A stretch of 64,000 nt of DNA from NCBI RefSeq assembly GCF_000212355.1, contig NC_015496.1, forward strand, positions 434,001 through 498,000. Direction: 5' to 3'. The notes under the pieces were generated by a model, which did no database searches, was not told the DNA's origin, and saw only the letters and a program-made list of their open reading frames with translations. Positions 7,019 through 63,566 of this stretch are shown here, piece after piece. How positions within the stretch are numbered: the first letter of the stretch is position 1; every line of letters starts with the position of its first letter. The stretch is from Dokdonia sp. 4H-3-7-5. Its GTDB lineage: Bacteria; Bacteroidota; Bacteroidia; Flavobacteriales; Flavobacteriaceae. The translations under genes were made by a program, and so were the position numbers.

Positions 7019-7030
7019 CTTTCGCGAAAG
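7019..7030. repeat. Iterated palindrome copy 1 (intergenic)
   Basis: CTTTCGCGAAAG, core at 7020-7029, in the gap between tRNA-Trp and the tuf terminator. It is the leftmost of 18 copies. Confidence 0.9.
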
Positions 7031-7058
7031 CTAAATAGAACCCCTCTTAACAAAAGTC

Positions 7059-7085
7059 AAGGCGTCTTGCAAAACAAGACACCTT
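7059..7085 (-). terminator. Probable terminator after tuf
   Basis: An 11-pair stem with one mismatch (AAGGCGTCTTG / CAAGACACCTT) and a five-base loop lies 23 bases past the tuf stop. On the minus strand the hairpin is followed by GACTTTTG, a short U-rich stretch, so termination may be partial and let tRNA-Trp-secE be read through. Confidence 0.65.
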
Positions 7086-7108
7086 TACTTTTTATCTATA
7101 GACTAGAA

Positions 7109-8296
7109 TTAATCTAATATCTCAGTTACCTGACCAGCTCCTACAGTTCTACCACCTTCACGGACAGCAAAACGAAGACCTAAGCTAAGTGCGATAGGCT
7201 GAATAAGCTCAACAGTAATAGTTAAGTTATCTCCAGGCATAACCATCTCAACTCCATCAGGAAGCATGATGTTACCAGTTACATCAGTTGTACGTACGTA
7301 AAACTGTGGACGGTAGTTATTGTGGAATGGAGTGTGACGTCCACCTTCTTCTTTCTTAAGGATGTAAACCTCAGCTTTAAACTTAGCGTGTGGTGTTACT
7401 GATCCTGGCTTAACAATTACCATTCCTCTAGAGATCATTGACTTCTCAATACCTCTTAAAAGGATACCAGCGTTATCTCCAGCCTCTCCTCTATCAAGGA
7501 TCTGACGGAACATTTCAATACCAGTAATAGTAGATGTAAGTTTTTCTGCACCCATACCAATGATCTCAACAGGATCTCCAGTGTTTGCAATACCAGTTTC
7601 GATACGACCTGTAGCAACAGTTCCACGACCTGTAATAGAGAATACATCTTCTATTGGCATAAGGAAAGGCTTTTCAGTCTCACGAAGTGGCTCTTCAATC
7701 CAAGCATCAACAGCAGCCATAAGCTCTAATACCGTATCAACCCATTTTTGCTCACCGTTTAATGCTCCAAGAGCAGAACCAGCAATTACAGGACCGTTAT
7801 CTCCATCATACTCGTAGAAAGAAAGAAGATCTCTGATCTCCATCTCTACAAGCTCAAGTAATTCTTCATCATCAACCATATCCACTTTATTCATGAATAC
7901 AACGATACGAGGAATACCTACCTGACGACCAAGAAGGATGTGCTCACGTGTTTGTGGCATTGGACCATCTGTAGCAGCAACAACAAGTATAGCACCGTCC
8001 ATTTGAGCAGCACCAGTTACCATATTCTTTACATAATCGGCGTGACCTGGACAATCAACGTGTGCATAGTGACGGTTTGCTGTCGCATACTCAACGTGTG
8101 AAGAGTTTATTGTTATACCTCTTTCTTTTTCCTCAGGAGCATTATCAATTTGATCAAAAGCAGAAGCTTCTGAATAACCCGCATCTGCCAATACTTTTGT
8201 AATCGCAGCTGTTAAAGTTGTTTTACCGTGATCTACGTGTCCGATAGTTCCAACATTTAAATGGGGTTTCGAACGATCGTATGTTTCCTTTGCCAT
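7109..8296 (-). CDS. tuf: Elongation factor Tu
   Basis: EF-Tu carries aminoacyl-tRNA to the ribosome as a GTP complex. The 395-residue protein has the G1 loop [10 protein letters not shown], the switch I region ERGITI, G3 DCPGHADY and G4 NKVD, then the two beta-barrel domains ending [16 protein letters not shown]. Length and all GTPase motifs are standard. It is preceded by four tRNA genes and followed by tRNA-Trp-secE-nusG, matching the tRNA-tufB-secE order of E. coli. Only one tuf copy is visible in this window. Confidence 0.99.
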
Positions 8297-59936: not shown

Positions 59937-59990
59937 ATCTTGTAACATCATTTTCTCTTAATTTTTAAACTGAAAAATAATTGAAACGTA

Positions 59991-60701
59991 TTAAATATAC
60001 GCTTCATCTATTTTCTTAGTGCTCTCTAAGCGCGTTAAAAACATTGCAAACACAACCTTGGCTATTCCTGCACAAAAGAGCGTTACTAAAAGAAAAAAAT
60101 CAATGTTAAGAATATACTTATAAATAAACGCAAAAGCAGACTCTACTAGCACTGCGGTAGCAATAAAGGTTAATAAAAGGTTTGATGGGTGCTTATTAAA
60201 CAATGGAATTGCATACAGCAATAAAATAAAAACAAGTAACCCCGCAAATGAAATCAAAAAGACGGTTAAATGAGCTATTTCTGGAAGTATCTCATAAGCT
60301 AAATAACCTATAAAAGTAGTCACCGAAAAAACTCCCAATAACACCTCAAGGTACAAGTGCCTAGGAAAGTTCTCAACTCGAAAGCGCATAACCTCCCTTA
60401 ACGCATAAAGCATTGATAAAAAACAAAAAACCATTGCTATAGATACGGTGTAAGTGTACTTATTGAAATCGATTAAAAAGAATATCTCTGCAGTGATTCC
60501 TGAAATAAGTGTAATCAAGAAAGGAAAGTGAAATTGTCCAGTTGCCTTGAAAACGTATAAAAACAATAAGATTCCAAATATTGGGTAAAGATAAAAGGAA
60601 GCCTCAAGACTTAAAACAATCGTTACAATTACAATTAAAATCGTAGTTGAAATTGCCGCTAGTCTATAGTTACGTCCGTGTATGCCATAAACCCTATCGA
60701 T
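59991..60701 (-). CDS. Polytopic membrane protein A, ATC start, paralogue of 60863-61579
   Basis: The coding frame continues upstream of the TTG at 60566 to a TGA at 60705-60707, with no ATG, GTG, TTG or CTG in the extra 45 codons. The extension (around [13 protein letters not shown]) is homologous to the neighbouring gene. Aligning the two places the ATC at 60701 exactly opposite the neighbour's TTG start (I-D-R-V against M-D-K-I). That gives 236 residues against 238, with six or more membrane helices. Either it starts at ATC or it has lost its start. Confidence 0.65.
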   Translation of the reverse strand: MDRVYGIHGRNYRLAAISTTILIVIVTIVLSLEASFYLYPIFGILLFLYVFKATGQFHFPFLITLISGITAEIFFLIDFNKYTYTVSIAMVFCFLSMLYALREVMRFRVENFPRHLYLEVLLGVFSVTTFIGYLAYEILPEIAHLTVFLISFAGLLVFILLLYAIPLFNKHPSNLLLTFIATAVLVESAFAFIYKYILNIDFFLLVTLFCAGIAKVVFAMFLTRLESTKKIDEAYI

Positions 60702-60862
60702 ACTTCAAAGCTAACTAAACCAAAACAATTAACTACCACATTATCTGTGTTTTACAAAATATTCAATTACTAAAATCCAGTAACTATTAAGAAATAAAAC
60801 CCTCAACTCGTGATTATTAATTAATATTTCAAGAAGATACAGTACTTAGAATCCCCTATTTA

Positions 60863-61579
60863 TCAAACATTTGTACCACTACCATCAAAATCTGAAATAG
60901 CATCTATCTTAGTCAAATAAGTTGCCAAGACTACCTTTAAATAAATAGTAAAAATCCCTCCTACAAGAAGAAAACCGATTTCTTGGTAAATGTATTTATA
61001 TATAAAAGCAAAAACCATTTCACCCATATATGCACCTCCAATAGCAAAAAGAGAAATATTGCCTGTATGCTTGTTGTAGCTAGGCGTAATAAAATATGCT
61101 CCGATTGTAATAATAAATATTATTGTAGAAATTATGAAAATGCTTAAATCTGGAACTACTGGAGCTATGGAATATATAAGATAACCTAGCACGAACCCAA
61201 AACCTAAAAATCCAATTATAAGCTCTAAAATATAGTGCTGAGAAAAAACCTTAGAACGTTTCTTAAGAACAGGCTTAAGCAGAAGAAGTAGGCAAATAGA
61301 TGAAATAACAGAAAAGAGAGAAGCTATTACAACGTAAGTGTCATAATCAAACAAAAACAATATCTCCGTAATATTTGTACTTAGCAAAAACAAAAAAAAC
61401 ACAATATTAAATTTATTGGTCTCTTTGTATTCGTACATAAACAAAGACAGTGAAAATATAGGATACAGATAGAATGAATAAAATATATTCCAAAACCCCA
61501 TTATAAGCATAATAAGCAGACCAGTAATTAAACCAGCTGTCCTATATGACCTTCCGTTTTGTATATTAATTTTATCCAA
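60863..61579 (-). CDS. Polytopic membrane protein B, paralogue of 59991-60701
   Basis: The 238-residue protein, which I do not recognise, has six to seven membrane helices and shares [11 protein letters not shown] and FAFIYKYI with its neighbour. It starts at TTG 61579, overlapping the ligA stop by eight bases. The pair probably arose by tandem duplication. Its function is unknown. Confidence 0.7.
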
Positions 61580-63566
61580 TAACTAAATTTAAGAATTCTT
61601 CTTCAGATATGATTGTTACTCCTAAGCTTTCTGCTTTCTCCAACTTACTTGGTCCCATCTTATCTCCTGCCACAACGTAGGTTGTTTTACTAGAAATAGA
61701 ACTAGACACTTTACCGCCATTATCTTCTATTAACTTTTTCAATTCGTTGCGAGGCATTTCAAAAACACCAGACACTACAAATATGTATCCCGCTAGTTTG
61801 TCAGATTGATTGGCAAGTTTCTCTGCAGAAATTTCTAATTGTACTCCGTAAGATCTTAAACGCTCTATGAGTGTAATATGTTCCGCTTTCGCGAAAAATG
61901 CCATTACACTTTCTGCAATCTTACTTCCTATTTCGTCCACCGCAACCAGCTCTTCCTCTGTTGCCGAAATAATAGCGTCTATAGATTTGTAATGTTTTGC
62001 AAGTTTCTTGGCTACGGTCTCACCTACATACCTAATTCCTAGACCAAACAACACCTTCTCAAAAGGAATCTGCACCGAGGCTTGCACTCCGCTTACTAGA
62101 TTTTCGGCACTTTTTTGAGCCATACGCTCTAGTGGTAATAATTGCGCTACAGTAAGCTCATATAGATCTGCATAATTTACAATCAGCCCCTCGTTTACTA
62201 AGAGCGCTACGGTTTCCCCTCCTAGACCATCAATATCCATTGCCTTTCTAGAGATGTAATGCTGTATTCTACCTATAATTTGAGTGGGACAGCCCATGTC
62301 ATTCGGGCAATAGTGCTGTGCCTCGCCTTCTTTACGCACTAACGGCGTGCTACATTCTGGACACTCAGTAATATATGTTGTAGGTTCAGAATCTGCTGGG
62401 CGCTTTGTAAGATCTACTGCTATAATTTTTGGAATAATCTCGCCGCCTTTTTCTACAAACACCTCATCACCTTCTCGTATATCGAGTCGCTCTATCTGAT
62501 CTGCATTATGCAAACTAGCTCGCTTCACGGTCGTTCCAGCAAGTTCAACAGGTTCAAGGTTTGCGACTGGTGTGATGGCTCCTGTGCGACCTACTTGGTA
62601 TGTTATTTCGCGTAAGCGTGTAGAAACTTGTTCTGCTTTAAATTTATACGCCATTGCCCATCGCGGAGCCTTTGCTGTATAACCTAGTTCTTCTTGTTGT
62701 TGTAATCCGTTGACTTTTACCACAACACCATCTGTCTCATAAGGTAAGTCACGCCTTGCCACATCCCAGTGATTGATAAATTCCAATACCTCATCAATAT
62801 TCTTTGCCAGTTTTGCCGCCTCAGGAACGCGGAAACCCCAATCGCGAGCCTTCTGTAAGCTATCCATTTGGGTAGCAATACCTAGATTATTTCCTGTAAT
62901 ATTATACAAAAGGCATTGCAGTGGTCTTCTAGCAACCTCAGCACTATCTTGTAATTTTAAAGATCCGCTGGCTGTATTTCTTGGATTGCGATAGAGCTCA
63001 AAACCTAGCTCTTCACGCTCTGCATTCATGGCATGAAAACCTTCCCATGGCAATACAATCTCCCCTCGTATATCAAATTTTTCAGGATAATCACCTTTCA
63101 GTTTTAAAGGAACCGACTTTATCGTTTTAATATTTGTAGTCACATCATCTCCTTGCAAACCATCTCCTCGAGTAACCGCTTTAAGCAACTCACCATTTTC
63201 ATAAGTAAGACTTATTGAGGCTCCGTCATATTTAAGTTCGCAGGTATAATTAACCTCTCCATCTACCATTTTCTTTACGCGTGCTTCCCAATCCTCAAGA
63301 TCTTCTTTTGAATATGAGTTATCCAGAGAGTACATTCTGTTCTCATGTACAATAGTCTCAAAATTTTTAGTCACCGCTCCACCTACACGATGCGTAGGCG
63401 AGTTAGGGTCGTCAAATTCCGGATGAGCAGCTTCTAGTGCTTCCAGTTGCTTCAGTTTTTGATCAAAGTCAAAATCTGATATCGTTGGTGTATCTAGCAC
63501 ATAATAGCTATGATTATGTGATTGTAGTTCGTTGCGTAAAGCGAGGATTTGCTCTTCTATTGTCAT
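61572..63566 (-). CDS. ligA: NAD-dependent DNA ligase LigA
   Basis: LigA seals nicks using NAD. The 664-residue protein has the adenylation domain with catalytic Lys in [11 protein letters not shown], the OB fold, a Cys4 zinc finger (CPEC...CPNDMGCP), helix-hairpin-helix repeats and a C-terminal BRCT domain (about 585-664). A palindrome copy encodes MAFFAKAEH. It overlaps the membrane protein B gene. Confidence 0.97.
61884..61897. repeat. Iterated palindrome copy 18 (in ligA)
   Basis: CGCTTTCGCGAAAA, core 61887-61896, read as F-F-A-K-A in LigA between the HhH and BRCT domains. Confidence 0.88.

Follow-up and report, generated by a model that had tools for sequence, protein, structure and literature searches.

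The genome of Dokdonia sp. 4H-3-7-5 (Flavobacteriaceae; assembly GCF_000212355.1) contains 1012 copies of the palindromic 10-bp core TTTCGCGAAA (40% GC), about 299 per Mb, as compared with 10 copies of the reversed word. The palindrome had been noticed in a stretch of 64,000 nucleotides (positions 434001-498000 of contig NC_015496.1, referred to here as the window); the analysis covered this stretch, the genome to which it belongs (one contig of 3,389,993 bp, denoted G000) and related genomes. The abundance, spacing, location and conservation of the copies suggest that the palindrome may be a genome-wide self-DNA recognition signal similar to the DNA uptake sequences (DUS) of Neisseria, a reading that we regard as quite possible, if short of probable.

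All 18 core positions listed for the window in the preliminary description were found to be exact (Table 1). An order-1 Markov model predicts 0.07 copies in the window, and dinucleotide shuffling gave a mean of 0.05, with none of 100 shuffles reaching 18; the earlier statement that such a 10-mer should occur far less than once in 64 kb was correct. The gene content of the window also agrees with the claim that the sites are not tied to one gene class. To say that the core is usually extended was generous, as the exact 16-mer CGCTTTCGCGAAAGCG surrounds only 7 of the 18 cores, with 4 more being one base off. As to the extensions of 20-28 bases, there is a perfect palindrome of 20 bp at 50681-50700, whereas none of 28 was found in the window. 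A decayed copy at 30112-30127, with the core TTTCACGAAA, is presumably a site caught in loss or gain.

The excess is not limited to the window: 138 copies were counted in a 458 kb sample of G000, where 0.43 were expected. Among 397 genomes of the family, representing 237 genera, six were enriched (G206, 1107 copies; G000, 1012; G242, 700; G394, 648; G010, 595; G190, 559), and the remaining 391 had at most 34 copies each. Both outcomes that could have spoken against the preliminary description, a count close to the Markov expectation and a comparable density in other genomes, were looked for, and neither occurred. The carriers belong to Dokdonia, Nonlabens and one further genus (G190). All 18 Dokdonia genomes examined were enriched, with 481-1195 copies and 9-23 copies of the reversed-word controls. 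A scan of the sequence collection yielded at least 111 loci, and among the matches listed all were from Dokdonia, Nonlabens or strain BBFL7, except one from Muricauda and one from a metagenome-assembled genome of Flavobacteriaceae. The locus from Muricauda sp. TY007 (L036), outside the carrier clade, has a single exact 20-mer in 8 kb, which may be due to transfer, contamination or chance. No comparably strong palindrome was found in 40 kb from each of 10 non-carrier genera, whereas 40 kb of G000 or G190 shows one. A tree of RpoC was built from 30 selected genomes, 20 of them non-carriers and 10 from among the 22 known carriers; a single branch (support 95/96, and 92% of 200 bootstrap trees) separates the carriers from the rest, the Nonlabens branch being long (0.35). 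LigA was set aside as a species marker in favour of RpoC: its ranking placed many non-carriers (75-80% identity) above G190 (74%), in conflict with the RpoC tree, and by LigA alone G190 would not rank close to the other carriers. The simplest reading of the distribution would be a single origin of the palindrome system. No prior description of the palindrome in Dokdonia, Nonlabens, Flavobacteria or Bacteroidetes was found in the open PMC literature, subscription papers being outside the scope of the search.

Individual copies are conserved much better than the surrounding DNA. The main comparison was made between the 458 kb of G000 and 320 kb of a second Dokdonia species (G397), which are 79% identical over 221 kb. 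Of the 138 G000 sites 67 were aligned, the other 71 having no aligned counterpart mostly because the stretch was outside the sample or synteny was broken. The core was exact in G397 at 60 of the 67 aligned sites (35/39 in genes and 25/28 between genes), a value which is perhaps slightly high, as a conserved word can help to anchor the alignment. The corresponding values for control 10-mers were 30195/201421 (15.0%) in coding and 3310/14697 (22.5%) in intergenic DNA, and 323/2609 for those with two CG. In the reverse direction, 71 of the 107 G397 sites were aligned and 60 of these were exact in G000. Among codons whose amino acid was kept, 100 of 104 within the core were identical, as against 16770 of 29195 outside it. 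At greater distances 6 of 10 sites were retained in G402 (73% identity) and 2 of 5 in G190 (65%), compared with 7% and 2% of the controls. One-mismatch words numbered 34 in the G000 and 16 in the G397 sample (15.2 and 8.9 expected), or about 0.106 in excess for each perfect site, and GC-N10-GC words had the exact core in 283 cases and one core mismatch in 8. Assuming equilibrium under mutation-selection balance and 30 neighbours, hand arithmetic gives a scaled selection of about ln(30/0.106) = 5.6, which, with a fourfold-site divergence of 0.77, predicts a retention of about 85% (observed, 90%). We infer that weak purifying selection at each site, or an equally strong drive, would be enough to explain the retention.

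The consensus over 351 sites is TTACGCTTTCGCGAAAGCGTAA. At these sites GC adjoins the core on both sides in 283 cases, on one side in 67 and on neither in 1 (3.4 expected); the half-sites vary independently, with no compensatory pairing and no dyad covariation beyond composition. Independent half-sites without compensatory pairing point to DNA that is read by a symmetric protein, and argue against an RNA hairpin; we infer that a symmetric (dimeric) candidate protein would read the palindrome as double-stranded DNA. Beyond the 22-mer, the bases 5' of the core are poor in C, which averages 7% in intergenic and 10% in genic copies over -24 to -5; farther out its frequency is that of the background. 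In coding and non-coding copies alike, this helically phased flank extends for about 24-26 bp per side, giving an element of about 60 bp, and the roughly 20 bases 5' of the palindrome are rich in G+T on both strands (0.65 and 0.63). Maxima of A are found at -7, -17 and -26, about 9.5-10 bp apart; the power at about 10 bp was 0.0064, as compared with at most 0.0018 in 100 random sets, similar power being present also at period 3, as expected from coding copies, and at period 5. In Nonlabens (G242) all 46 sites read CTTTCGCGAAAG, and the C-poor flank is stronger, with T at 0.73 at -12 and -6. In 200 kb of the same genome (L396-L405), the words TTCTAGAA (34 versus 13.8) and ATCTAGAT (32 versus 13.4) show a mild excess. 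In G190 (46% GC) the flank is weak, and 33 one-mismatch words occur beside 39 sites. With its sparser motif, weaker flanks, smaller intergenic excess and common near-misses, G190 perhaps represents an eroding system.

For placement, genes were called by a simple greedy open reading frame (ORF) caller with no ribosome-site model. In the G000 sample 56 of the 138 sites were intergenic, in 9% of the DNA. In G000 and G397 together (1.178 Mb) there were 160 intergenic and 191 genic copies, that is 1.24 and 0.18 per kb, the palindrome being about seven times denser between genes. Intergenic sites accounted for 22 of 46 in G242 (10% of the DNA) and for 8 of 39 in G190 (7%). Gaps between divergent genes contained 5 sites in 9.1 kb (0.55/kb), tandem gaps 42 in 26.9 kb (1.56/kb) and convergent gaps 8 in 5.0 kb (1.61/kb); divergent promoters are thus avoided. 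Inside genes, where 54-59% of the copies are located, all three frames are occupied (45 AFAK-type, 19 LSRK-type and 18 RFRE-type of 82 sites), and the first tenth of the called gene holds 21 of the 82, some of which may reflect errors in the start codon.

Whereas the preliminary description had called the spacing irregular, the copies are spaced over the whole genome more regularly than expected by chance, also when compared with a gene-matched null. Each of 20 chromosome stretches of 20 kb contained 2-8 copies. Among the first 100 G000 positions only 4 gaps were shorter than 1 kb (24 expected), and the coefficient of variation (CV), 0.63, was never reached in 20,000 uniform draws. A null that keeps the intergenic/genic split gave CVs averaging 1.03, the lowest of 5000 being 0.785, whereas the observed CV was 0.60; only one intergenic gap had two sites (null mean 7.8). 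None of 45 gaps in G242 was below 1 kb (Poisson expectation 9.5), and in G190 the CV was 0.67 versus 0.99 (P 0.002), with 3 short gaps of 38 versus 6.8. The regularity is weaker in the 17 gaps of the window alone (P 0.008 on CV, 0.30 on short gaps).

These properties recall the uptake sequences. If the palindrome marked kin DNA for preferential uptake or recombination, as uptake sequences do in Neisseria and Haemophilus, a second copy on a fragment already holding one would gain little, which would lead to even spacing; sites would accumulate in those regions of the ancient core genome that tolerate them, and near-misses would be scarce, intermediates being little favoured. The DUS of Neisseria are described as 71% exactly conserved, mostly intergenic, located in the permissive core genome and absent from recently acquired genes, and many are too divergent from their counterparts to be explained by point mutation alone (PMC2397512); even spacing has been reported for the uptake sequences of Haemophilus (PMC1939737). 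In the accounts cited, the likeness lies in a copy number of roughly a thousand or above, in even spacing, in location at tolerant places of the core genome and in strong conservation (PMC2397512, PMC1939737, PMC3630211). The copies of the Dokdonia motif are likewise evenly spaced, permissively placed and individually conserved well above their surroundings. The uptake signal sequences (USS) of Pasteurellaceae have extended flanks, in which they resemble the Dokdonia element. In 13 of the 18 Dokdonia genomes, those at least 90% complete and with sizes rounded, copy number hardly followed genome size, each additional Mb bringing 92 more copies (r 0.46). The genomes G398, G408 and G410, of 4.8-5.5 Mb, scarcely exceeded the Dokdonia genomes of 3.3 Mb in copy number. 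This small gain suggests that the motif may be a mark of old core DNA, by which recent acquisitions could be recognised. On scarcity in newly acquired DNA, as described for uptake sequences, the observations are this slope over 13 genomes and the copies carried by phage-like contigs.

Seven viral contigs had 3-4 copies each, two of them sharing sites and thus not being independent; the density of copies in these contigs is biased, since the motif itself was used to find them. Proteins were tested in 6 of the 7, and four had an integrase, terminase, portal/tape-measure protein or head protease, one a transposase and one a family of unknown function. The viral scan with a 14-mer gave at least 120 loci, 79 of those listed having a GC content above 0.44 and being taken as chance without individual check; one single-copy site, recurring with the same flanks in several low-GC loci, was not counted as evidence. 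With an 18-mer only 3 stretches were found. Phage-like contigs L154, L171, L172, L225 and L226, which have genes for an integrase, terminase, portal protein or head protease, have 2-3 copies in the examined stretches, some positions being shared. In two Nonlabens phages that are related to each other and lack an annotated integrase, neither the palindrome nor a one-mismatch word occurs in the 35.7 kb of each, which counts in favour of an uptake-type signal.

Several observations weigh against a signal for uptake. The copies in phage-like contigs suggest a benefit to DNA while it is inside the cell. Known uptake sequences are described as non-palindromic (PMC1939737), whereas in Dokdonia both the core and its extension are palindromic, and a strict palindrome fits an intracellular dimeric binder at least as well. 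The spacing, about 3.3 kb, is wider than the 1.1-1.5 kb given for DUS (PMC2397512). Protein-family searches were made in 26 genomes (16 of the 22 known carriers and 10 non-carriers), and comEC, found in all 26, makes uptake possible; it is permissive only, and, being present in 10 of the 10 non-carriers, does not discriminate. Reports of natural transformation turned up for Riemerella and other genera and none for Dokdonia or Nonlabens, no search being aimed exactly there, and no receptor for the element was identified.

A chromosome-organising function is nearly as likely as the uptake-type signal, though we consider it only as possible: a nucleoid-associated homodimeric protein, or one acting in segregation or repair, would occupy each site, with the flanks wrapped or bent and the even spacing serving domains. 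The strict palindrome with its independent half-sites, the A maxima at helical distance, the even distribution over the chromosome stretches and the copies in phage-like contigs fit such a protein. The copy number, on the other hand, barely scales with genome size, the A profile has similar power at periods 3 and 5, and the reader protein was not found. A ParB/Noc paralogue was considered for this role, and none was found; ParB_N matches were one or two in each of the 26 genomes and exactly one in G000. The parS and Noc sites are palindromes with TTTC...GAAA, are bound by homodimers and act on the chromosome, their copies being tens at most. The Dokdonia palindrome shares the TTTC...GAAA but differs in half-site spacing, the single ParB of G000 leaves no dedicated paralogue, and no match to the 16-mer consensus of parS was present in the 385 loci examined, a part of the genomes. 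A two-way, palindromic Chi-like site, at which an enzyme of RecBCD/AddAB type would be switched and the G/T-rich strand 5' of the palindrome would receive RecA, appears unlikely. It would account for the C-poor, G/T-rich 20 bases on both strands and for the absence from the two Nonlabens phages, and one site per 3.3 kb is near the density of Chi in E. coli, 1008 in 4.64 Mb (PMC1939737). A palindrome of 16-20 bp within a phased 60-bp element is, however, not expected of Chi; no search for AddAB was made. The known Chi sites, each a short asymmetric word recognised on a single strand, also count against this explanation, the word found here being palindromic. A signal in transcription (operator, terminator or RNA hairpin) is very improbable. 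The 42 sites in tandem gaps are nearer to the upstream stop codon (median 42 bp) than to the next start (98 bp), which speaks for such a signal, but more than half of the copies are genic, divergent gaps are poor in sites, the right flank is A-rich rather than T-rich and compensatory pairing is lacking; a terminator or operator was rejected, as location and flank asymmetry disagree with it.

The preliminary description had offered a binding or uptake-type site, a methylation-related motif and the product of a repeat-spreading process as interpretations. Selection on the sites, independent half-sites and the phased flank support the first, and the other two found no support, the methylation link as tested on three methyltransferase families. 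A short mobile repeat spreading by insertion, like a repetitive extragenic palindrome (REP) with its associated tyrosine transposase (RAYT) or a miniature inverted-repeat transposable element (MITE), could explain the high copy number, the consensus reaching beyond the core and the intergenic excess. The alignments of G000 and G397, however, differ at 18 places, 13 gap-free and 5 gapped. At seven of these places the site belongs to G000 alone, 5 being without a gap and 2 having gaps of 7 bases; at the other 11 it is G397 that has the site (8 gap-free, 3 gapped), one of these facing the decayed site at 30112. At least 5 of the 13 gap-free differences are one change from the core; some others differ at three or more positions, where base-by-base homology is not sure. 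The LigA site reads FFAKAE in both Dokdonia compared, whereas 7 of 12 non-carriers have FFAS and the other 5 differ, with no length change at that point. The gap-free differences and the unchanged length of LigA favour creation in place over insertion of a unit. The 5 gapped differences would suit a mobile repeat, whereas the position kept at 60 of 67 sites would not, and this origin is extremely improbable; the alignments do not support whole-unit insertion of the REP/RAYT or MITE class, RAYT transposases not having been searched for.

An orphan DNA methyltransferase making or keeping the copies, as proposed for HIP1 (highly iterated palindrome 1; GCGATCGC) of cyanobacteria and the alternate HIPs, which one published model ties to methyltransferases (Elhai 2015, PMC4390886), is also very unlikely here. 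The genre is the same: a very abundant, CG-centred palindrome, inside and between genes (PMC4390886), and the Dokdonia motif is, like a HIP, grossly over-represented genome-wide. HIPs as described are GC-rich words (at least 75%, one exception) with about 1000-2000 copies per Mb, HIP1 itself occurring at 1-2 per kb (PMC4390886), whereas the Dokdonia element, from a different phylum, has a 10-bp core of 40% GC and long phased flanks and is found at about 0.3 per kb. The cited model assigns a cognate methyltransferase to every carrier (Elhai 2015, PMC4390886). No methyltransferase of families PF00145, PF01555 and PF02086, the three families tested, was common to the 16 carriers (with 10 non-carriers searched alongside): PF00145 was absent from 9, PF01555 was over the cut-off in 2 and PF02086 was absent from 6. 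None of the three was over the cut-off in G000, G401 and G242, G000 having one weak PF01555 fragment below it. As tested on these families, HIP1-type methylation was rejected.

Table 1. Sites of the palindrome in the window and their counterparts in other genomes
Site	Position	Location (strand)	Sequence	Counterparts
1	7020..7029	between tRNA-Trp and tuf (EF-Tu)		exact in G397
2	8502..8511	between tRNA-Thr and tRNA-Gly genes		exact in G397
3	11856..11865	near 5' end of ORF 10717-11901 (-)		exact in G397
4	12599..12608	in ORF 12030-12911 (-)	perfect 16-bp palindrome	exact in G397
5	16038..16047	between ORF 14711-15730 (-) and recQ-like 16085-18283 (-)		exact in G397
6	20208..20217	intergenic 20175-20244	perfect 18-bp palindrome	exact in G397, G402
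7	24946..24955	intergenic 24873-24980		exact in G397, absent in G402
8	27118..27127	in ORF 25811-27295 (+)		exact in G397, G402
decayed 19th	30112..30127		one core change	perfect in G397
9	33264..33273	near 5' end of ORF 33223-33693 (+)		exact in G397
10	33739..33748	near 5' end of ORF 33686-34345 (+)	reads FFAKA	exact in G397
11	36055..36064	in ORF 35827-36960 (-)		not at aligned place in G397, G402, G190
12	39371..39380	near 3' end of ORF 38511-39470 (+)	reads AFAKA	exact in G397, G402, G190
13	41728..41737	near 5' end of ORF 41701-42348 (+)		exact in G397, one change in G402
14	42229..42238	near 3' end of ORF 41701-42348 (+)		exact in G397, G402, G190
15	45372..45381	in ORF 44630-45607 (+)		exact in G397, G402, not in G190
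16	50686..50695	intergenic 50607-50713	longest perfect palindrome, 20 bp	exact in G397, G402
17	56973..56982	in ORF 56781-57665 (-)		exact in G397, not in G402
18	61887..61896	in ligA (61572-63566, -)	reads FFAKAE	exact in G397

Ever since HIP1, palindromes of the highly iterated kind have been puzzling. The Dokdonia motif adds a separate case from a distant phylum; selection can be measured on its individual sites, and its extended structure lets a protein footprint be predicted. The 18-bp palindrome of Caldithrix abyssi is similar in being palindromic, in preferring intergenic regions and in its probable location downstream of genes, and differs, in the account cited, in having only 38 exact core copies and a strand-specific centre (PMC5317091). 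The Dokdonia palindrome also shapes proteins, since about half of the copies are in genes, where they write AFAKA, RFRES or LSRK(R). Tentatively, the ~60-bp dyad-symmetric, phased element may be a new genome-wide DNA address, which would have arisen once in the ancestor of Dokdonia and Nonlabens and would be offered to a dimeric candidate reader about every 3 kb, and would be carried even by phages living in these hosts. The restriction of the motif to one clade, and its lack in the sister genera, should make it feasible to find the reader protein and so to test the function of such motifs directly. If true, such an address would be of another kind than HIP1, DUS, Chi or parS, a recurring mark of architecture or self-identity.

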